Shown: positions 9,342-19,753 of the stretch, piece by piece
Position numbering within the stretch: position 1 is the stretch's first letter
How the letters are laid out: each line of letters opens with the position of its first letter
DNA from: Actinobacteria bacterium HGW-Actinobacteria-4
GTDB taxonomy: Bacteria > Actinomycetota > Actinomycetes > Actinomycetales > Demequinaceae
Reading direction: 5' to 3'
DNA: 64,000 bases
Assembly (NCBI GenBank): GCA_002841315.1
Contig: PHEW01000004.1
Location: 124,001 to 188,000, forward strand
Position numbers and translations under genes: made by a program
Notes under the pieces: model-generated
What the model was told of the DNA's origin: nothing
Databases searched by the model: none
Seen by the model: the letters and a program-made list of their open reading frames with translations, nothing else

Positions 9342-9415
<74 letters not shown>

Positions 9416-9430
9416 CAATTGCGATATGTC

Positions 9431-9797: not shown

Positions 9798-12068
9798 ATG
9801 AGCATCGCCGACCTTGACCCCACGCCCGCAACGGCAACGTCACAGCGCGTGGACCTCGCCGTGATTAAGCGGGACGGCCGGTCCCTACCGTTCGACGACG
9901 GCCGCATCCGGCGCGCGCTGCACGCAGCCTTTGTGGCGGCCCACGGCGACGTAAACGACAGCCACCGCCTCGCGATCGACGCGTTGCTGGTGCGGATCGA
10001 CGCTGAGCTCGTGTCGCGATTCACCGGCTCCGTCAAGATTTACGAGATCCAGGCTGTCGTTGAACACGAACTCCTGAGCGCCCGCGAGTACGAGGTGGCG
10101 CGCGCCTACATTGACTACCGCGTGCAACGCGACTTCGCCCGGAGCAAGGCCACCGACCTGAACCACTCCATCTTGCGGCTGTTGGACAAAGACAGCGCCC
10201 TCGTCAACGAAAACGCCAACAAGGACTCCGAGGTCTTCAACACCCAACGGGACCTCACCGCGGGCATTGTGGGCAAGGCGATCGGCCTGCGCCTGCTCCC
10301 GGCGCACGTTGCGAACGCCCACCAGAAGGGCGACATTCACTATCACGACCTCGATTACCACCCGTATGCGCCCATGACCAACTGCTGTCTGATCGACTTC
10401 GAGACGATGCTGTCCAAGGGCTTTCGGATTGGCAACGCCGCCGTCACGCCGCCGCGTTCCATCCAGACGGCCACCGCACAGATCTCGCAGATCATCGCCA
10501 ACGTGTCATCGAGCCAATACGGCGGGGTGTCGGTCAATCGCATCGACGAACTCCTCGCGCCGTATGCGCGGCTCAACTTCGCCAAGCATGAGGCCGACGG
10601 CGAGGTGTGGATCGAAGATCCCTCCCGGCGCGCGGAGTACGCACGCTCCAAGACGCTGAAAGACATCTACGACGCCATGCAGTCGCTTGAGTACGAGATC
10701 AACACGCTGTTCACCTCAAACGGCCAGACGCCCTTCACCTCGATTGGCTTTGGGTTGGGGGAGGGGTGGTACGAGCGCGAGATTCAGCGTGCCATCCTCG
10801 AGATTCGCATCCGTGGCCTTGGCGGCGAGGGCCGCACCGCCATCTTCCCCAAGCTGCTGTTCACCCTGAAACGAGGCGTGAACCTTGAACAGGATGACCC
10901 CAACTACGACATCAAGGAGCTCGCGATTGAGTGCGCTACCAAGCGCATGTACCCGGACATCTTGTCCTACGACAAGATTGTTGAACTCACCGGCTCCTTC
11001 AAGGCACCCATGGGTTGCCGGTCGTTCTTGCAGGGCTGGGAGGACGAGGACGGCAACGACGCTGTCGAGGGCCGCATGAACCTGGGAGTGGTCACGCTGA
11101 ACCTCCCGCGCATCGCGCTCGAATCTCACGGCAGCAAGGAGATCTTCTGGGCGCTGCTCCACGAGCGCCTTGCCACCGTGCACGACGCCCTGATGTACCG
11201 CATCGAACGCTGCAAGGAAGCCACCCCGGCCAACGCGCCCATTCTCTACATCCACGGGGCTTTCGGAAAGCGCCTGGCGCTGACGGACGACGTCGACGAA
11301 CTGTTCCGCGGTGGCCGTGCCACCGTCTCTTTGGGGTACATCGGGCTCTATGAAGTGGCGACGGCGTTCCATGGCGGCGAATGGGAGTCTGATCCACAGG
11401 CCAAAGAGTTCACCCTTGACGTCTTGCGTGCCCTCAGGGCTCAAGCCGCCGAGTGGACCGCGGCGTCGGGGTACCAGGTGAGCGTCTACTCCACCCCCAG
11501 CGAGAGCCTCACCGACCGGTTCTGCAGAATCGACAAGGAGCGCTTTGGCTCGGTTCCGGACATCACAGACAAGGACTACTACACCAACAGCTTCCACTAC
11601 GACGTGCGCAAGAACCCCACGCCGTTTGAGAAGCTCGACTTCGAGGCGCCGTATGCCGCACTGACGTCAGGGGGCTTCATCCACTACTGCGAGTACCCGG
11701 TGCTGCAACAGAACCCGCGTGCACTCGAGGCAGTCTGGGACTACGCCTATGACCGCATCGGCTACCTGGGAACCAACACGCCCATTGACCGCTGCTACGA
11801 ATGCGAGTACATGGGCGACTTTGACCCCACCGCCGCCGGTTTCGCGTGCCCGCAATGCGGCAACGAAGACCCGCGCACCTGCGATGTGGTCAAGCGCACC
11901 TGTGGCTACCTTGGCAATCCCCAGCAGCGCCCCATGGTCCATGGCCGCCACGTCGAGATCTCCTCGCGGGCCAAGCACATGAGCGGTGACGTCCGCGTGC
12001 CGCTGTCGGCCTTGCAAGACGCCGATGCTGTGGTCACCCCCGGCGCGGCGCGGTCGGACGGCGAATAG
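9798..12068 (+). CDS. nrdD: Anaerobic ribonucleoside-triphosphate reductase
   Basis: Class III enzyme that makes dNTPs from NTPs without oxygen by means of a glycyl radical. The 756 residues comprise an ATP-cone allosteric domain (about 15-105, from VIKRDGRSLPFDDGRIRRAL), the ten-stranded barrel, a zinc site with Cys666, Cys669, Cys684 and Cys687, and the glycyl-radical loop RTCGYLG at 700-706 with the radical Gly near 703. The C-terminus continues about 50 residues past the loop, longer than usual. nrdG follows 8 nt later, and two NrdR boxes lie upstream. It suggests growth or survival under low oxygen. Confidence 0.96.
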   Translation: MSIADLDPTPATATSQRVDLAVIKRDGRSLPFDDGRIRRALHAAFVAAHGDVNDSHRLAIDALLVRIDAELVSRFTGSVKIYEIQAVVEHELLSAREYEVARAYIDYRVQRDFARSKATDLNHSILRLLDKDSALVNENANKDSEVFNTQRDLTAGIVGKAIGLRLLPAHVANAHQKGDIHYHDLDYHPYAPMTNCCLIDFETMLSKGFRIGNAAVTPPRSIQTATAQISQIIANVSSSQYGGVSVNRIDELLAPYARLNFAKHEADGEVWIEDPSRRAEYARSKTLKDIYDAMQSLEYEINTLFTSNGQTPFTSIGFGLGEGWYEREIQRAILEIRIRGLGGEGRTAIFPKLLFTLKRGVNLEQDDPNYDIKELAIECATKRMYPDILSYDKIVELTGSFKAPMGCRSFLQGWEDEDGNDAVEGRMNLGVVTLNLPRIALESHGSKEIFWALLHERLATVHDALMYRIERCKEATPANAPILYIHGAFGKRLALTDDVDELFRGGRATVSLGYIGLYEVATAFHGGEWESDPQAKEFTLDVLRALRAQAAEWTAASGYQVSVYSTPSESLTDRFCRIDKERFGSVPDITDKDYYTNSFHYDVRKNPTPFEKLDFEAPYAALTSGGFIHYCEYPVLQQNPRALEAVWDYAYDRIGYLGTNTPIDRCYECEYMGDFDPTAAGFACPQCGNEDPRTCDVVKRTCGYLGNPQQRPMVHGRHVEISSRAKHMSGDVRVPLSALQDADAVVTPGAARSDGE

Positions 12069-12076
12069 GTCGCGTC

Positions 12077-12655
12077 ATGCCTCGTGAGCCCGTGCCTGCG
12101 TTGTGGACGTCCGCGCGAGTGAGCCATGGCTATGTGGCCGACTACAAGCCGTTCTCCTTTGTGGACGGCGAAGGCGTGCGGTGCAGTCTCTATGTGAGCG
12201 GATGCCTCTTCCAGTGCGAAGGCTGCTACAACAGGGCAGCGTGGAGCTTCCGGCTGGGGGAGAAGTACTCGGTGTCGATCGAGGACCAGGTCATGCGTGA
12301 CCTTGCCCACGATTCCGTGCAGGGGTTGTCGTTGCTGGGCGGGGAGCCCTTCGTGAACACCGAGGTGTGCCTGAGCGTTGCCCGGCGTCTGCGTCGCGAG
12401 TTCGGCCACACCAAGGATGTGTGGTGCTGGAGCGGGTACACCTTCGAGCAACTCATCGCCGATGACTCCGACAAACGCGCGTTGCTCGAGCTGGTCGACG
12501 TCCTCATCGACGGACCGTACCTTGAGGCCGAGCGTGATCTGACCTTGCCGTTTCGCGGAAGCGCGAATCAGCGAGTGGTCGACGTGCCTGCGTCACTCGC
12601 GGCGAAAGAAGCTGTCCCATGGCACGCGCGGCGCGTTTCCCACGTGCAAGCGTAG
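12077..12655 (+). CDS. nrdG: Anaerobic ribonucleotide reductase activating protein
   Basis: Radical-SAM activase that installs the glycyl radical on NrdD. It is 192 residues, with the iron-sulfur signature CLFQCEGC (Cys43, Cys47, Cys50, spacing CX3CX2C) followed by YN, the SAM-binding LSLLGGEPF and DVWCWSGYTFEQL. It directly follows nrdD and presumably shares its transcript, since no promoter fits in the 8-nt gap. The C-terminal 30 residues (RGSANQRVVDVPASLAAKEAVPW...) are basic and match the end seen in other NrdG proteins. Confidence 0.95.
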   Translation: MPREPVPALWTSARVSHGYVADYKPFSFVDGEGVRCSLYVSGCLFQCEGCYNRAAWSFRLGEKYSVSIEDQVMRDLAHDSVQGLSLLGGEPFVNTEVCLSVARRLRREFGHTKDVWCWSGYTFEQLIADDSDKRALLELVDVLIDGPYLEAERDLTLPFRGSANQRVVDVPASLAAKEAVPWHARRVSHVQA

Positions 12656-12685: not shown

Positions 12686-13360
12686 ATGCCTGTCATCGCC
12701 ATCATTGGAGCCGGACCAGGACTTGGGGCCGCAGTCGCGAGACGTTTTGGTCGCGAGGGATTCTCGATCGCGCTGCTCTCAAGGGATCAGGCCAAACTCG
12801 ACGCCCTTGCGGATCAACTTCACTCCGAGGGTCTGACAGCCGCCGGCTACGCCGCGAACGTGATCGAGCCCGCGTCGCTCGAGGCTGCCCTCGCGCAGGC
12901 GGCAGCTGAACTCGGGCCCATCACCACGCTCCAGTACAGCCCGTTGCCCTCACGCGACTACCTGAAGCCAGTCCTCGACCTCACACCGGAGCTCGCCCTC
13001 GAGGCCCTGCGTTTTTCGGCCCTGGGGTTGATCCACGCCGTGCGCGCCGTCTTGCCTGCCATGCGCGCGGCAGGCGACGGGAGCATCGTCCTGATCAACG
13101 GCGGCACCTCGGTGAAGGCGCGCGCGGACTTCGCGGGCACCTCGGTCGCCTTTCCTGCTGAGAGCGCCTACGGCGAGATGCTCCACGATGCTCTTCAGGA
13201 GGAAGGGATCCGAGTGTCGCAACTCGTGATTCCTGGTTCTATCCCCAAACTGCAACTCGCGAACGGCCTTGACGACGTCGCTGAGCGCATTTGGGAACAA
13301 CACGCCGCACCAGGCCCGTTCCGCACCATGCTTATTCCGCTTGAAGACGGCCGCGAATAG
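12686..13360 (+). CDS. Short-chain dehydrogenase-like protein, atypical active site
   Basis: Rossmann-fold SDR of 224 residues with the N-terminal nucleotide motif GAGPGLGAAVARRFGREG in place of the usual TGxxxGIG, and the NNAG-like region replaced by LQYSPLPSRDY. At the active site the YxxxK motif is not conserved: the expected segment reads SAYGEMLHDAL, keeping a Tyr but with Leu where the catalytic Lys should be. It may bind a dinucleotide without normal SDR catalysis. The substrate is unknown. It lies alone between nrdDG and tdk with its own -10 box. Confidence 0.8.
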   Translation: MPVIAIIGAGPGLGAAVARRFGREGFSIALLSRDQAKLDALADQLHSEGLTAAGYAANVIEPASLEAALAQAAAELGPITTLQYSPLPSRDYLKPVLDLTPELALEALRFSALGLIHAVRAVLPAMRAAGDGSIVLINGGTSVKARADFAGTSVAFPAESAYGEMLHDALQEEGIRVSQLVIPGSIPKLQLANGLDDVAERIWEQHAAPGPFRTMLIPLEDGRE

Positions 13361-13378
13361 CGTGGGAGCGGGGCTCTG

Positions 13379-13975
13379 ATGGCAAAGCTGTACTTCCGCT
13401 ACGGCGCGATGAACTCATCCAAGACGGCACTTCTGCTCACCGCCGCCTACAACTATCAAGAACGGGACCAGTACCCGGTAGTCGTCAAGCCGGGCGTGGA
13501 CACCAAGGCAGGCCGCGCCGTCCACTCCCGGCTGGGCGTCTCGCGTGACGTCGACGTCCTGTTGGGGGCCGAGGATTCGCTCATCGCCGCGCTGGAAGCC
13601 CACCGGCCACTCGATCAGATTGATGCCGTGTTCGTCGACGAAGCGCAGTTCCTCACGCCCGCCCAAGTGGACGAGGCCTTCACCGTCGCTGTGGTGCTTG
13701 GCGTGCCCGTCCTTTGCTACGGGCTACGTGGCGACTTCATGACGCGGTCATTTCCCGGATCCCTGCGCCTGATGGAGATCGCGCATTCCATCGAGGAGCT
13801 CAAGACCATCTGCCGATGCGGGTCGAAGGCAATCTTCAACGCGCGCCTCGTTGGGGGAGAGTTCGTCAGCCAGGGCGCCCAAGTTGCCATCGACGGCGAG
13901 CAGGCCTCGTATGAGTCCTTGTGCGGCAAGTGCTATCTCGACAAAGTGGGACCACTGACGGCATCGACGCCCTGA
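13379..13975 (+). CDS. tdk: Thymidine kinase
   Basis: Type II thymidine kinase that salvages thymidine to dTMP. It is 198 residues with the P-loop GAMNSSKT (9-16), the Walker-B-like VFVDEAQFL, the lasso region YGLRGDFM, and zinc-ribbon cysteines in ICRCGSKA and LCGKCYLD. GGGAGCGGGG precedes the ATG by a few bases. It starts 18 nt after the SDR stop, so may be cotranscribed. Placement just after the ribonucleotide reductase genes fits dNTP supply. Confidence 0.95.
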   Translation: MAKLYFRYGAMNSSKTALLLTAAYNYQERDQYPVVVKPGVDTKAGRAVHSRLGVSRDVDVLLGAEDSLIAALEAHRPLDQIDAVFVDEAQFLTPAQVDEAFTVAVVLGVPVLCYGLRGDFMTRSFPGSLRLMEIAHSIEELKTICRCGSKAIFNARLVGGEFVSQGAQVAIDGEQASYESLCGKCYLDKVGPLTASTP

Positions 13976-14002
13976 GCAGGGGTGTACGTTGACACCATCA
14001 GC

Positions 14003-14009
14003 AAGGAGG
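14003..14009 (+). promoter_or_regulatory. Strong ribosome binding site that sets the heliorhodopsin start
   Basis: AAGGAGG lies 5 nt before the GTG at 14015. An in-frame GTG at 13982 upstream of this site is therefore unlikely to be used. Confidence 0.75.
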
Positions 14010-14014
14010 CTGTC

Positions 14015-14794
14015 GTGTCCACATCAACTCCGATCCCGGTGACCCCGGCAATCGCGATCAAACTGCGTCGCTACAACACCGCGATGGGCGTACTTCACGC
14101 GATCCAAGGCGTCGCGGTGGTGGCGCTTGCGACAGGCTTCACCCTGCCCGTGGTCGCCACCTTCATGACCGGCCCGCCTGGGGCTCAAGATGCGGCCGTC
14201 ACTCACTTGTTTGACTTCCGGTACGCGTGGGGCGTCGCCGCGTTCCTGTTCCTGTCCGCAGTGGCACACTTGGTGATCGTCTCGCCGTGGTACTTCCCGA
14301 CGTACCTCAAACAGTTGTCGCAGGGCCGCAACTACGCCCGCTGGGTCGAGTACTCAGTGTCGTCGTCGCTCATGGTCGCGCTCATTGCGCTGCTGGTAGG
14401 GATCGCGGATGCCGCCGCGTTGATCGGCCTCATCGGCGTCAACGCGTCGATGATCCTGTTCGGCCTGTTGCAGGAGAAGTACGAGAGCCCCGGCAAGCGC
14501 AGCAGTTTGATCTCGTACTGGTTTGGTTGCATCGCAGGCGCGCTGCCATGGCTGGCCATCGCGCTGTATTTGTGGGCGCCAGGCGTCGAAGCGTCACCCC
14601 CGGCCTTTGTGTACTGGATCTTTGTGTCGCTCTTCGTGTTCTTCAACTGCTTCGCGATCGTCATGGTGTTGCAGTATCGACAGGTGGGCAAGTGGGCCGA
14701 CTACCTCTACGGCGAGTCCACATATATCCTGCTCAGCCTGGTAGCGAAGTCGCTCCTTGCCTGGCAGATCTTCGCAGGTACGCTGGCCGGTTAG
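14015..14794 (+). CDS. Heliorhodopsin
   Basis: Seven-helix retinal protein of 259 residues with inverted membrane topology compared with type-1 rhodopsins; known members have long photocycles and no agreed function. Landmarks line up with heliorhodopsin 48C12 at a constant offset: His28 (His23 there), His85 (His80), counterion Glu112 in RWVEYS (Glu107), and Lys245 in SLVAKSLLAWQIF (Lys241, Schiff base) with Ser241 before it. There is no signal peptide and the polar N-terminus is about 20 residues. No carotenoid-cleavage or retinal-synthesis gene is in the window. The next gene, 82 nt downstream, is a membrane diguanylate cyclase. Confidence 0.95.
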   Translation: MSTSTPIPVTPAIAIKLRRYNTAMGVLHAIQGVAVVALATGFTLPVVATFMTGPPGAQDAAVTHLFDFRYAWGVAAFLFLSAVAHLVIVSPWYFPTYLKQLSQGRNYARWVEYSVSSSLMVALIALLVGIADAAALIGLIGVNASMILFGLLQEKYESPGKRSSLISYWFGCIAGALPWLAIALYLWAPGVEASPPAFVYWIFVSLFVFFNCFAIVMVLQYRQVGKWADYLYGESTYILLSLVAKSLLAWQIFAGTLAG

Positions 14795-14864
14795 CCACTG
14801 CTTGTCTTGGTGTCGGGTGGATCACACCACTGCTCAGGAACTAGTGATCGAACACCTCGACCTC

Positions 14865-14870
14865 TACCAT
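14865..14870 (+). promoter_or_regulatory. -10 element of the diguanylate cyclase gene
   Basis: TACCAT lies 6 nt before the ATG at 14877; there is no ribosome site. This suggests the cyclase can be transcribed separately from the heliorhodopsin gene. Confidence 0.45.
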
Positions 14871-14876
14871 CGAAGC

Positions 14877-16058
14877 ATGCTGGATATCGACACGCTTCGC
14901 ACCGTACAGGCGGTTTTGGCGATGTGCGTCTTCGCCCTGGTGTTCTTTGGCACCTACCGTGCAACGCGCGCGCCCTATGCGTTCTGGTGGGCAGGGGTGT
15001 TGGTCGTATCGAGTGCCAGCAGCGCGATGTACCTGCTCAACACCACGCCCGCGCAGCCCGTAACCGACGCGATCGGACAGGGGCTCGGGCCTGTCGCGGG
15101 AGCGTGCGCTTGGGCAGCGTCGCGTTCGCTCCGTTCCAAACCCACCGCGTGGTGGCAGCTCTACCCCGCCGGAGTTGCGGTCTTTGCGTTCGCGTTGATG
15201 GACAGGCGCGACGACGGCACCCTTCCTGGCACGCCGGCGCTACTCACTGCGATGGTCGTGATGTTCACACTGACTGCCCGAGAGTTGTGGAAGTACTCTC
15301 AGAATCCCCACGTGAGTCGCGACCGTGAGATCGTGCCTGGTGCACGAGTCGGCGTCGTGGTGATGGCACTCGCGTCGGCCCTGATAGCGGTGTTCTATGC
15401 GGTGCGGCTAGGGGTGTTCGCCGTGCTGGGGCCCACGTCCCACTTCTACCTGACGTGGACAGGTCCTGTCACCACAACACTGTTCATCTTGATCCTGCTG
15501 GTTGTGGTGACGCATACCGTGGGCGCGCTGAGTCAACTTGAGTCGTCACATGAATGGCGACGGCGCGCCACCTACGACGATCTCACGGGCCTCCTGGGCC
15601 GTAACGCATTCATGGAAAGGGCGTCGGCGTTGCTGGCGCAGCGCCATGCGGAGGGAGTCAGCCCCACCTTGGTGATCGCGGACTTTGATCGGTTCAAGGA
15701 GATCAATGATGAGCGAGGACACGCTGCAGGAGACCGGGCACTGGAGGCCTTTGGCGACGCATGTCACCGCTTGCTCACTCGCGAGGATCTCGCCTGCAGG
15801 CTTGGAGGTGACGAGTTCGCTTTGGTTCTGGCCGGTGCCGACGTCGAGGAGGCTGAGGCTCTGACATCGACCCTGAGCACGCTTTTCGTGGCGCTCATGG
15901 GAACCGACGTCCCCTGTCCCACGGTGAGCTTCGGAATCGCCCCCGCAGAACGGTCTGCGTCACTGTCGGAGTCCTTGCGATACGCGGACGACGCGCTGTA
16001 CCAAGCGAAGCGCGCAGGCGGCAATCGAAGCGTCATCTTCGCTCGCGTCACGCGTTAG
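14877..16058 (+). CDS. Membrane-bound diguanylate cyclase (GGDEF)
   Basis: Makes cyclic di-GMP from two GTP. It is 393 residues: an N-terminal integral membrane domain with about six to seven helices (residues 8-215, for example AVLAMCVFALVFFGTY and TTTLFILILLVVVTHT), then a GGDEF domain (about 225-390). The catalytic motif RLGGDEF is intact (310-314). The inhibitory I-site RxxD five residues before it is not present (TRED at 301-304), so feedback inhibition may be lost. The membrane part has no named sensor domain that I can recognise. The start is set by a -10 box 6 nt upstream; a longer frame to 14757 overlaps the heliorhodopsin gene. Confidence 0.92.
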   Translation: MLDIDTLRTVQAVLAMCVFALVFFGTYRATRAPYAFWWAGVLVVSSASSAMYLLNTTPAQPVTDAIGQGLGPVAGACAWAASRSLRSKPTAWWQLYPAGVAVFAFALMDRRDDGTLPGTPALLTAMVVMFTLTARELWKYSQNPHVSRDREIVPGARVGVVVMALASALIAVFYAVRLGVFAVLGPTSHFYLTWTGPVTTTLFILILLVVVTHTVGALSQLESSHEWRRRATYDDLTGLLGRNAFMERASALLAQRHAEGVSPTLVIADFDRFKEINDERGHAAGDRALEAFGDACHRLLTREDLACRLGGDEFALVLAGADVEEAEALTSTLSTLFVALMGTDVPCPTVSFGIAPAERSASLSESLRYADDALYQAKRAGGNRSVIFARVTR

Positions 16059-16115
16059 CGTTGCTCCATCCGACTGCTGTGCGCCGCCCTGTTGGTCGCC
16101 GCTGCCCGAGTGTGA

Positions 16116-16121
16116 CAGGGT
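16116..16121 (+). promoter_or_regulatory. -10-like element of the transglutaminase-like gene
   Basis: CAGGGT lies 6 nt before the ATG at 16128; the first base departs from the usual T. Confidence 0.35.
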
Positions 16122-16127
16122 GCACAC

Positions 16128-16919
16128 ATGCATAGTGACGTCTCCGCCCGCCTTGAGATCACGGTTATCGAGCCAGCCAAGATCGTCTTCGCCATTGCGG
16201 CCGCTGAAGGGTTAGCCGCCCACGAGGGACTGAGCATCACGGTCGCCGGGTCCAAACTCGAACCCACGCTCCTGACCGATGCGCACGGCACCAGGCTGCA
16301 TGAGGTGCATGCACCCGCCGGTGCCATGGTGCTTGACTACCAAGCAACAGTCACTGAGGTGGGCCCGCCATCGCCGGTCAACTCGCTCGATCTGATCCGG
16401 TACATGCGACCCAGCAGGTATTGCGAGTCCGACACTCTCAGTCCCACGGCTCAAGCCGAGTTCGTGGGGCTTAGCGGTGTCGATCTGCTGGAAGCCGTCA
16501 GTTCCTGGGTCGGCACTCGGCTCGACTACATTCCCGGATCAAGCAGACCCACCGACGGCGCAGTGTCCACATTGCTGGCTCGCGAAGGCGTCTGCCGCGA
16601 CTACGCGCACTTGGTCATTGCGCTCCTGCGGGCAGCGGGAATCCCCGCACGTATGGCAGCCGCATACGCGCCGGGGCTCAAACCCATGGACTTCCACGCG
16701 GTCGCAGAAGCCTATGTTGACGGGGTTTGGAACGTCGTTGACGCGACAGTGCTCGCTCCCCGTCAGAACATGATTCGCATCGCGACGGGTCGCGACGCAG
16801 CAGATACCGCCTTCATGGATGTGTTGAGCGGTGTCGCCACCCTGGATGGCATGTGGGTGACAGCAGTGACTGACCAACTCGCGACAGATGACGTCCGCGA
16901 ACTCGTGCAGTTGGGGTAA
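16128..16919 (+). CDS. Transglutaminase-like (protease-type) family protein
   Basis: 263-residue protein with an N-terminal beta domain (about 1-95, as in the Bacterial transglutaminase-like N-terminal region) and a papain-like transglutaminase core. The triad is visible: Cys in REGVCRDYAHLVIALLRAAGIPAR, His in MDFHAVAEAYVDGVW and Asp in NVVDATVLAP. Such proteins may be peptidases or cross-linkers, often associated with cell-envelope or peptide metabolism; the substrate is not known. No signal peptide is seen, so it is probably cytoplasmic. It stands alone between the cyclase and the LacI regulator. Confidence 0.87.
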   Translation: MHSDVSARLEITVIEPAKIVFAIAAAEGLAAHEGLSITVAGSKLEPTLLTDAHGTRLHEVHAPAGAMVLDYQATVTEVGPPSPVNSLDLIRYMRPSRYCESDTLSPTAQAEFVGLSGVDLLEAVSSWVGTRLDYIPGSSRPTDGAVSTLLAREGVCRDYAHLVIALLRAAGIPARMAAAYAPGLKPMDFHAVAEAYVDGVWNVVDATVLAPRQNMIRIATGRDAADTAFMDVLSGVATLDGMWVTAVTDQLATDDVRELVQLG

Positions 16920-16945
16920 TCATCGAAACCCCGCGGAAGCCATGC

Positions 16946-16951
16946 CAGACT
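16946..16951 (+). promoter_or_regulatory. -10-like element of the LacI-family gene
   Basis: CAGACT lies 7 nt before the GTG at 16959; no ribosome site is evident. Confidence 0.35.
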
Positions 16952-16958
16952 TAGTCCC

Positions 16959-17972
16959 GTGAGCACAGCAGGAAGAAGCCGACCGACGCTTGACGAGGTT
17001 GCGCTCCTGGCAGGGACCTCGCGGGCCACCGTGTCACGTGTGGTGAATGGCTCTGACAGGGTACGTCCCGCGACTCGCGAGGCGATTCTCGCGGCGGTGC
17101 GAGAACTGGGGTACGTCCCCAATTTTGCTGCGCGTAGCCTCATGATCAACCGCACAGACACCTTTGGCTTCGTTGTGCCTGAGGCCCAAACGCGGGTGTT
17201 CTCCGACGACGCGTTCTTCGCTACGGTCATGCAAGGAGCCGGAGAGGAACTGGATCGAGCCAACAAGCAACTGCTCTTGATGCTCGCGCCCACAAGCACG
17301 AGTTACGAACGGATCGAGCGCTACGCCACCGGTGGTCACGTTGACGGCGTGATCATCGCTTCCATGCATGGTCCGGATCCACTCCTCAGGGCGCTCCTCG
17401 CCGCGCAGGTTCCGGTGGTGGCGAGCGGACGGCCGTTGTCGATGGACGGAGTTCCGTATGTCGATGTTGATCACCGCCGGGCCGTGCAGGAGGCGATGGA
17501 TCACTTCTACCGAACGGGAAGAGCGAACGTGGCGACCATTGCGGGACCGCAAGAGATGGTCGCAGGTGTGGAGCGGCTCGAAGGTTACCTGAACGCAGTG
17601 GCGGCGGCGGGTGCGGAGCCCCTGGTGGCGTACGGTGACTTCACTCGCGATTCCGGATATGCGGCGATGACGGAGATTCTGGGTTCGGGAAGGCCCGTCG
17701 ACGCACTCTTCGCGGCGTCGGATCTGATGGCCGACGGTGCGATCCGTGCACTGCGAAACGCAGGCCTGAGCGTTCCGAACGACGTCGCCGTGATTGGGTT
17801 CGATGACTCAGCGGTGGCTCGCTACAGTGACCCGCCACTGTCGACCATTCGCCAACCGCTCTATGAGATTGGGACCACGCTCGCACGCCAAATTCTTGCG
17901 ATCGCCAATGGTGATCAGATCGATCAAGCCGTGTTGTTGCATACCGAACTGGTGCTTCGCGAGTCGAGCTAG
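16959..17972 (+). CDS. LacI-family transcriptional regulator
   Basis: 337-residue sugar-type repressor. The helix-turn-helix is PTLDEVALLAGTSRATVSRVVNGSDRV with the hinge AARSLMINRTDTFGFVVPE. The rest is a periplasmic-binding-protein-like ligand domain, including the C-terminal signature DVAVIGFDDSAVARYSDPPLSTIRQP. No sugar transporter or catabolic gene is adjacent, so the target cannot be inferred. Its stop overlaps the end of the convergent helicase gene by 4 nt. Confidence 0.93.
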   Translation: MSTAGRSRPTLDEVALLAGTSRATVSRVVNGSDRVRPATREAILAAVRELGYVPNFAARSLMINRTDTFGFVVPEAQTRVFSDDAFFATVMQGAGEELDRANKQLLLMLAPTSTSYERIERYATGGHVDGVIIASMHGPDPLLRALLAAQVPVVASGRPLSMDGVPYVDVDHRRAVQEAMDHFYRTGRANVATIAGPQEMVAGVERLEGYLNAVAAAGAEPLVAYGDFTRDSGYAAMTEILGSGRPVDALFAASDLMADGAIRALRNAGLSVPNDVAVIGFDDSAVARYSDPPLSTIRQPLYEIGTTLARQILAIANGDQIDQAVLLHTELVLRESS

Positions 17973-19723
17973 GTCCGGGGGCGCCGCGATTCCCGGCTCT
18001 TGCCTGCGTTGGATGGCCCGCCATCGGGCCGCAAGTCGATCAACACGCCGCTGATGCGGGTGCTCGACAACTTCCGCAACACGCCGGGGGAGAGGTCAGC
18101 TGGCAGGTCAACCAGCGAGAACCCGGGATGAATCTTGATCGCACCGAAGTCCCCGCGTGTCAACCCGCCCTCGTTGGCAATCGCACCGACAATCTGCCGG
18201 GGCTCAACCTTGTGGCGCTTGCCCACGGCGATCCGATAGGTCGTCATCGGCCCGCTGGCAGCGCGCTTGCCGCCAGGCTTGCCCGGACGCTCGCGCGAGT
18301 CGCGGTCTGATCGAGACTTCCCGCTACCACCCGCAAACTCCTCACGCATGAAGCGCTCGTCTTCGGCGGACAGCAACAGAGGGCTGTCTCCCTGCGCCAC
18401 AACAGCGAGCGCGGCGGCGACGTCAACCTCGGGAACGTCGTGGTGCTCGACGTAGTGGCCAACGATGTCGCGGAACCGCTGAATCTCATCGGCGCGAGCC
18501 AACGCAGCCGTGATGGAGTCATCGAAGCGGGCCAGCCTGCTCGAGTTGACATCGTCCACACTCGGCAGGTGCATTTGCGTGAGCGGTTGGCGGGTGGCGC
18601 GCTCGATGGAAGCGAGCATGCGACGCTCGCGGGGGGTGACAAAGCTGATCGCATCACCGGTGCGCCCCGCGCGGCCGGTTCGTCCTACGCGGTGGATGTA
18701 GGACTCCGTGTCGATCGGGATGTCGAAGTTGACCACGTGACTGATGCGGTCCACGTCGAGCCCACGTGCGGCGACATCGGTCGCCACCAAGATGTCGAGC
18801 TTGCCGTCCTTCAGCTGAGCGATGGACCGTTCGCGCTGCACTTGGGCCACGTCTCCGCTGATGGCGGTCGCGGCGTAGCCACGGGCTCGGAGTTTCTCCG
18901 CGAGCGTCTCGGTCTCGTTCTTGGTGCGTGTGAACACGATCATGGCCTCGAAGTTCTCGACTTCGAGGATGCGCGTGAGGGCGTCAACCTTCTGCGGGTA
19001 GGAGACGATCAGGTACCGCTGGGTCAGGTTGACCGAGGTGGTGGTCTTCTGCTTGACCGTGATCTCCTCAGGGTTGCGCAGATACTTCGCTGACAGCCTG
19101 CGAATCTGGGCGGGCATGGTCGCGGAGAACAGCGCCACCTGTTTGTCGGCGGGGGTGGACGACAGGATGGTTTCGACATCCTCGGCGAATCCCATCTTCA
19201 ACATTTCGTCGGCCTCGTCGAGCACCAGGTACTTGAGCTCGGACAGGTCGAGAGTGCCCTTGTCGAGGTGGTCCATGATGCGTCCAGGCGTTCCCACGAC
19301 GACATGGACGCCACGGCGCAGTGCCGACAGCTGCACGCCGTACCCCTGGCCGCCGTAGACGGGAAGCACGTGCACGCCCTTGGTGTGAGACGAGTACCGC
19401 TCGAACGCCTCACAGACCTGCAATGCGAGCTCCCGGGTCGGGGCAAGGACAAGGGCCTGCGGCTGCTTCTGCGTACGGTCCAGCCGAGCGAGAATGGGTA
19501 GCGCGAAGGCAGCGGTCTTGCCGGTTCCCGTCTGGGCAAGGCCGATCACGTCGCGGCCTGCAAGGAGTGCGGGGATGGTGGCAGCCTGGATCGCAGATGG
19601 CGTCTCGTATCCCACGTCTTGGAGTGCCTTCAGCACCGGTCCCTCAAGCCCAAGGTCGGAAAAGGTGGTGGTGTGGGGCTCGTCGGCGGGCGCTGTGTTC
19701 GTATCAGAATCGGTGGGAGGCAT
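17969..19723 (-). CDS. DEAD-box ATP-dependent RNA helicase (DeaD/CsdA type)
   Basis: RNA-unwinding enzyme of 584 residues. The motifs in order are the Q-motif region FSDLGLEGPVLKAL with IQAATIP, AQTGTGKT, PTRELALQV, GTPGRIMDHL, DEAD(EM), SAT, and HRVGRTGRAGRTG. After the two RecA domains comes a DbpA-like RNA-binding domain (MTTYRIAVGKRHKVEPRQIVGAIANEGGL...) and a basic tail. It probably acts in ribosome assembly or mRNA decay, often under cold stress. The ATG at 19723 is chosen because TACCGT lies 6 nt before it; a TTG at 19744 is the alternative. It converges with and overlaps the LacI gene by 4 nt. Confidence 0.94.
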   Translation of the reverse strand: MPPTDSDTNTAPADEPHTTTFSDLGLEGPVLKALQDVGYETPSAIQAATIPALLAGRDVIGLAQTGTGKTAAFALPILARLDRTQKQPQALVLAPTRELALQVCEAFERYSSHTKGVHVLPVYGGQGYGVQLSALRRGVHVVVGTPGRIMDHLDKGTLDLSELKYLVLDEADEMLKMGFAEDVETILSSTPADKQVALFSATMPAQIRRLSAKYLRNPEEITVKQKTTTSVNLTQRYLIVSYPQKVDALTRILEVENFEAMIVFTRTKNETETLAEKLRARGYAATAISGDVAQVQRERSIAQLKDGKLDILVATDVAARGLDVDRISHVVNFDIPIDTESYIHRVGRTGRAGRTGDAISFVTPRERRMLASIERATRQPLTQMHLPSVDDVNSSRLARFDDSITAALARADEIQRFRDIVGHYVEHHDVPEVDVAAALAVVAQGDSPLLLSAEDERFMREEFAGGSGKSRSDRDSRERPGKPGGKRAASGPMTTYRIAVGKRHKVEPRQIVGAIANEGGLTRGDFGAIKIHPGFSLVDLPADLSPGVLRKLSSTRISGVLIDLRPDGGPSNAGKSRESRRPRT

Positions 19724-19729
19724 AGTTAT

Positions 19730-19735
19730 ACGGTA
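19730..19735 (-). promoter_or_regulatory. -10 element of the DEAD-box helicase gene
   Basis: TACCGT on the minus strand, 6 nt before the ATG at 19723. Confidence 0.45.
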
Positions 19736-19753
19736 GTCGCTCAACGCTGGGCG

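Follow-up and report, generated by a model that had tools for sequence, protein, structure and literature searches.

An intact heliorhodopsin in a Demequinaceae genome in which Blh- and RPE65-type oxygenases were not found, and its neighbouring diguanylate cyclase gene

We found that the window (the whole 64,000-nucleotide stretch of DNA analysed) encodes a genuine, intact and ordinary heliorhodopsin, and that the genome carrying it yielded neither a Blh nor an RPE65-type oxygenase gene. Our preferred reading, to which we assign a probability of roughly 0.65, is that the protein is a seven-helix, retinal-binding light sensor with its N terminus inside the cell, that a partner protein is switched by light, and that retinal is obtained from outside or through a novel enzyme. 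The host genome (2.52 Mb, 17 contigs, 98.75% complete) probably belongs to the genus Demequina, of which culture collections keep strains (some under NBRC names), and other members of this genus are referred to as congeners. The features around the heliorhodopsin gene are as follows.

9342-9416, tRNA-Pro (ggg), with no other tRNA gene detected in the window
9798..12068, + strand, anaerobic ribonucleoside-triphosphate reductase (NrdD; PF13597, 3.6e-185)
12077..12655, + strand, anaerobic ribonucleotide reductase activase (NrdG type; PF13353, 4e-50), probably so named given its adjacency to NrdD
12686..13360, + strand, short-chain dehydrogenase/reductase (PF00106, 3.7e-20)
13379..13975, + strand, thymidine kinase (PF00265, 2.7e-35), ending 39 bases 5' of the heliorhodopsin start
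14004..14009, + strand, probable ribosome-binding site AGGAGG, 5 bases 5' of the GTG, read from the sequence
14015..14794, + strand, heliorhodopsin, 259 aa, GTG start (PF18761, NF038020; sequence and fold matches to the structures of 48C12 and TaHeR)
14877..16058, + strand, membrane diguanylate cyclase, 393 aa from ATG 14877 (PF00990, 1.4e-32)
16128..16919, + strand, transglutaminase-like protein (PF01841, 3.6e-19)
16959..17972, + strand, LacI-family regulator (PF13377, 3.6e-31; PF00356, 4.2e-18)
17969..19744, - strand, DEAD-box RNA helicase (PF00270, 4.7e-52)

The nrdG-nrdD pair also adjoins thymidine kinase in one congener (L156), and nrdD adjoins a diguanylate cyclase gene in another (L149).

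The first-pass annotation had placed a heliorhodopsin at 14015..14794, and this identification was borne out by two profiles and by a fold match to 48C12. The forward-strand frame encodes 259 residues with no inner stops and ends with a stop at 14792-14794, whereas the reverse complement in the same register contains stops. The longest possible frame begins at GTG 13982; GTG 14015 is preceded by AGGAGG, which we take to be a ribosome-binding motif. The Pfam Heliorhodopsin profile PF18761 covered residues 17-257 (E 5.6e-98, 327.5 bits versus a cut-off of 26.7), and the NCBIfam HeR equivalog NF038020 scored 320.5 bits versus a cut-off of 100. It is a routine family member, with 7,972 significant matches among the 7,999 candidates that were scored, and identity to 48C12 was about 50%. 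Third-position GC was 0.83, within the range of the neighbouring genes (0.69-0.84).

The landmark residues were examined in a phmmer alignment to 6su3_X that was read by hand. His28, His85, Glu112 and Lys245 corresponded to His23, His80, Glu107 and Lys241 of 48C12, just as had been claimed from the sequence, and S241 corresponded to S237; the query numbering runs +5 relative to 48C12 up to a gap near residue 160 and +4 past the last gap. E112, S241 and K245 were invariant in all 108 aligned heliorhodopsins, and H28 and H85 were each kept in 100 of them, with Leu in the other 8. The retinal lysine lies in helix 7 within an SxxxK motif (S241-L-V-A-K245), the Glu counter-ion E112 is present, and a GPPG motif occupies residues 53-56. 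Compared with 20 other rows, hand-picked among 120 listed matches (alignment A1), the protein departed at none of the columns conserved in at least 85% of them. An AlphaFold2 model of moderate confidence (pLDDT 76.9, 21 sequences) had the seven-helix heliorhodopsin fold; its ten best PDB matches were all heliorhodopsins (TMq 0.84-0.90), with 48C12 the best at 0.90.

What we propose for the topology, for the binding of retinal, for the photocycle and for the regulation of a partner is modelled on published heliorhodopsins. Light would isomerise retinal on Lys245, with Glu112 as counter-ion, protons would shift within the Schiff-base cavity, the cytoplasmic loops would change shape, and a partner protein bound at these loops would be switched. 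Such regulation is in print: AbHeR is reported to bind and up-regulate glutamine synthetase in light via basic residues of an intracellular loop (PMC9529153), and OcHeR to up-regulate an ABC transporter, OmrDE (PMC11109279). The earlier remark that the function of heliorhodopsins is unresolved is therefore only partly true now, and both a heliorhodopsin in Demequina and the regulation of neighbours by heliorhodopsins have already been published. The cytoplasmic loop of the window protein reads Y-R222-Q223-V-G-K226-W (YRQVGKW) and keeps the basic residues R222 and K226; position 222 was always Lys or Arg across the 108 rows. With the AbHeR numbering given in PMC9529153 as a guide, R222 and K226 would correspond to K216 and K220 of AbHeR, and K216 is described there as critical for partner binding. 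By the same number-based mapping, the charged K217 of AbHeR would be replaced by the uncharged Q223, which counts against the preferred reading.

Retinal-forming enzymes were searched for in the host genome with other genomes as controls. No Blh gene was found in the host by a search that matched 3 of 7 other genomes, and no RPE65-type oxygenase by a search that matched 2 of 14. A Blh profile (PF15461) matched 0 of the 47 Demequinaceae genomes, a count obtained without a positive control in that search, and type-1 rhodopsins were matched in 0 of the 47 family genomes and in none of the control genomes either. Phytoene synthase was found in 46 of the 47 genomes, and the only match in the host was on G000:C1, a contig other than that of the window. 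There a carotenoid cluster (about 381343-386467, or L145:6344-11468) runs crtE-crtB-crtI-two CarR-domain lycopene cyclase genes-UbiA prenyltransferase, the products being a polyprenyl synthetase, a phytoene synthase, a phytoene desaturase family protein, two small lycopene-cyclase-domain proteins and the UbiA prenyltransferase. We take this gene set to be of the C50 carotenoid biosynthesis type. The first-pass annotation had stated that no retinal-synthesis gene is in the window, which holds for the families searched, with Blh and RPE65 found nowhere in the genome and the only phytoene synthase match on another contig. The genome-wide search for crt and blh genes that it had proposed recovered the crtE-crtB-crtI and CarR-domain cyclase cluster but not blh. 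The two origins that it had offered for retinal, elsewhere in the genome or outside, can be made more precise. Since neither enzyme was found and the carotenoid genes are of the C50 type, uptake of retinal from outside or its production by a novel enzyme is most likely; a retinal gene may possibly have been missed within the 1.25% of the genome estimated to be missing, and the protein, having no known source of retinal, might carry no pigment in this bacterium.

The failure to find a Blh or RPE65-type gene would also fit a heliorhodopsin that was acquired by transfer and persists as a blind apoprotein doing little, an explanation that we consider unlikely. There is no sign of decay: the protein is full length, its landmarks are intact and it carries no odd substitutions. 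Moreover, Aurantimicrobium minutum, which has crtYe/Yf and crtEb and is without blh and diox1, is reported to contain retinal and a working rhodopsin all the same (PMC7734400), and a fenestration near the retinal in solved heliorhodopsins has been proposed as an entry for outside retinal (PMC9385722). For most Luna-1 bacteria without blh, the case has been made that their retinal comes from outside (PMC12422013).

The distribution and lineage of the gene lend the blind-apoprotein explanation some weight. Heliorhodopsins were found in 11 of 47 Demequinaceae genomes, namely the host, 8 of 43 congeners and 2 of 2 genomes of a second genus (0 of 1 for a third genus), leaving 35 of the 43 congeners in which none was found; nor is the lineage of the window protein the one common to congeners. 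When 108 rows were placed in a tree, the congener heliorhodopsins (L131-L138) formed a single group of eight (support 100/100). The window protein fell on the opposite side of the drawn root, where it grouped first with two short-contig proteins (100/98) and next, at 99/88, in a set of 11 rows that takes in the second genus and others. The congener proteins belong to the same family and have the same landmark residues as the window protein; they differ in identity (52-55%, compared with 72-73% for the second genus), in tree side and in genomic place. The window heliorhodopsin is thus of a different lineage from the congener heliorhodopsins found. As the root is arbitrary, the tree fits transfer into the species and equally fits an ancient copy of the family that survived in this species and the second genus and disappeared from the rest. 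One of the eight congeners shows, besides its other copy, a second, partial match at G036:C102:5251-5508 (residues 176-259, 61% identity).

The genomic place was compared with 19 thymidine kinase loci from relatives, in stretches of 4.7-17.5 kb. In 3 of the 19, from three congeners, the DEAD-box helicase gene adjoins thymidine kinase in convergent orientation, and the helicase was not found in the other 16 stretches; in the window, the heliorhodopsin, diguanylate cyclase, transglutaminase-like and LacI genes sit between the two. Carriers of the gene were also considered and rejected. Two viral patterns were matched by 21 stretches, none of which was confirmed, although distant viral heliorhodopsins could escape this search, and plasmid carriage returned only two distant records at 45-46% identity. 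One heliorhodopsin of 46% identity lies at NZ_CP141705.1:4155-4904 on a 10.5-kb Lactococcus petauri plasmid record. As for insertion scars, a convincing direct repeat was absent from 13300-18200, where one weak 27-nt pair was seen.

We further investigated whether the neighbours of heliorhodopsin genes recur. Genes within four of the heliorhodopsin were clustered at 83 of 89 loci; the 6 loci at which the simple gene caller chose the opposite-strand frame were dropped. Leaving heliorhodopsin itself aside, the largest cluster sizes were 12 loci for ABC-transporter ATPases and 8 for short-chain dehydrogenases, both at scattered positions; other named clusters held a UbiA/hydrolase fusion (7), DUF554 (5) and an NmrA/DUF2867 protein (5). 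None of these clusters took in a neighbour from the window. Of the eight genes closest to the window heliorhodopsin, the DEAD-box gene, which is four genes away, was alone in falling in a cluster of at least three loci. At E 1e-5, matches in other loci comprised three GGDEF proteins for the cyclase (L065, L068), one for the transglutaminase-like protein (L074) and two for the helicase (L017, L043), and thymidine kinase had 0 matches among the neighbours at other heliorhodopsin loci. A conserved operon partner, meaning a same-strand neighbour kept in related loci, was accordingly rejected, since neither flanking gene recurred in the loci compared. The failure to find such a partner at the loci examined suits a blind apoprotein as well, and the "clear neighbourhood" on which the earlier annotation had placed value says little so far. 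A suspicion, raised by gene sizes, that congener heliorhodopsins lie beside carotenoid genes was refuted by ten congener neighbours tested, which included ABC transporter parts, PGI, DsbA-like, aldo/keto reductase, phosphorylase-superfamily and NMT1-like proteins.

Promoter- and terminator-like sites were scanned for in 13300-16300 with a consensus that may not suit this organism, and none was found. The 39-bp same-strand gap to thymidine kinase, likewise with no promoter-like site found in it, would allow heliorhodopsin to tune nucleotide or redox metabolism together with the upstream run of thymidine kinase, short-chain dehydrogenase and anaerobic ribonucleotide reductase genes. Short-chain dehydrogenases are listed as one of ten frequent heliorhodopsin neighbour groups (PMC11109279), and they formed the cluster found in 8 of the 83 loci; the window's own dehydrogenase, two genes upstream, matched none of those cluster members at E 1e-5. 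Thymidine kinase, moreover, was present in 46 of 47 family genomes, and 0 of the 19 relatives' thymidine kinase loci contained a heliorhodopsin. We regard this explanation as extremely unlikely.

On the downstream side, the membrane diguanylate cyclase gene starts 82 bp past the heliorhodopsin gene on the same strand, and its start at ATG 14877 is supported by congener homologues that align from residue 1. The model (pLDDT 93.2) has about 6-7 long N-terminal helices, presumably lying in the membrane, and then a GGDEF domain with an intact GGDEF motif at 310-314. The canonical RxxD inhibitory site is absent, the sequence at its presumed position being T301-R-E-D304. The best fold match, 8wcn (ImcA of PAO1), had a TMq of 0.46, a low value that perhaps reflects a different domain orientation. 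Neighbouring pairs of this membrane cyclase family recur in several congeners.

As the adjacent gene, this cyclase is a first candidate for the partner of heliorhodopsin, though a doubtful one. The lit heliorhodopsin would contact the membrane domain of the cyclase and alter its c-di-GMP output, which could be degraded by EAL proteins of the genome (7 EAL matches, one partial). We hold this pairing to be improbable, and the evidence is divided. The two genes share a strand with no terminator-like site found in the short gap, and the cyclase combines its intact motif with an N-terminal domain made of helices. Three tandem copies of this cyclase family (L133:731-4687, L135:18-3327) lie 3.3-7.5 kb from the other type of heliorhodopsin in each of two congeners that are closely related, and GGDEF and EAL domains are named as less frequent neighbours of heliorhodopsins (PMC8612252). 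This was the sole paper found with both heliorhodopsin and GGDEF; no literature pairing heliorhodopsin with a diguanylate cyclase was found, and papers pairing it with c-di-GMP were off-subject by title and abstract. Against the pairing, at E 1e-30 the cyclase family was found in 37 of 47 Demequinaceae genomes, in 29 of which heliorhodopsin was not found, and a survey of 106 other heliorhodopsin loci contradicted a general association. These comprised 80 named loci, 8 from congeners and 18 more from the order (all the new full-length places there, with 27 of 396 genomes of the order matching heliorhodopsin); L030 and L187, whose contigs are equally long, may be one locus, which would put the distinct count slightly below 106. 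Flanks reached up to about 6-8 kb, many being shorter, and relatives of this cyclase served to build the profile used for detection, so that divergent GGDEF domains may escape it. A GGDEF gene was the next same-strand gene in 0 of the 106 loci and lay anywhere in the flanks in 4 (L065, L068, L133 and L135), among which the heliorhodopsins of L065 and L068 are identical and those of L133 and L135 are 95% identical. A combined version, in which heliorhodopsin switches the adjacent cyclase while a novel oxygenase supplies the retinal by cleaving a C50 carotenoid or some other product of lycopene, is very unlikely.

Taken by itself, the window protein is one more heliorhodopsin among thousands. 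A genus that has cultivated strains, two heliorhodopsin lineages and no known retinal-forming enzyme found could nevertheless serve as a test case for the source of retinal, and the diguanylate cyclase directly downstream is a defined, easily assayed candidate output. The locus is worth a second look for the missing retinal source and for this neighbour, which is unusual but unreplicated.

Returning to the preferred reading of a retinal-binding light sensor, the closest structural comparison is with 48C12 (PDB 6su3, 6uh3), which shares the fold and landmark residues and, as far as seen, differs by sequence divergence only; its GPPG motif, stated in PMC9385722, is the one found at 53-56 here. 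The Demequina lutea heliorhodopsin DlHeR, compared by its description in the same paper, comes from the same genus and is stated to have the GPPG motif. The window protein resembles AbHeR with glutamine synthetase (PMC9529153) and OcHeR with OmrDE (PMC11109279) in being a sensor-type heliorhodopsin beside a possible effector, and differs from them in that a glutamine synthetase or ABC transporter gene was absent among the ten genes examined around it. The nearest parallel for the retinal question is A. minutum, which, as described in PMC7734400, likewise combines a rhodopsin-family gene and a C50-type carotenoid cluster with no known retinal-forming oxygenase found. Its rhodopsin is a type-1 proton pump with measured endogenous retinal, whereas the window gene encodes a heliorhodopsin.
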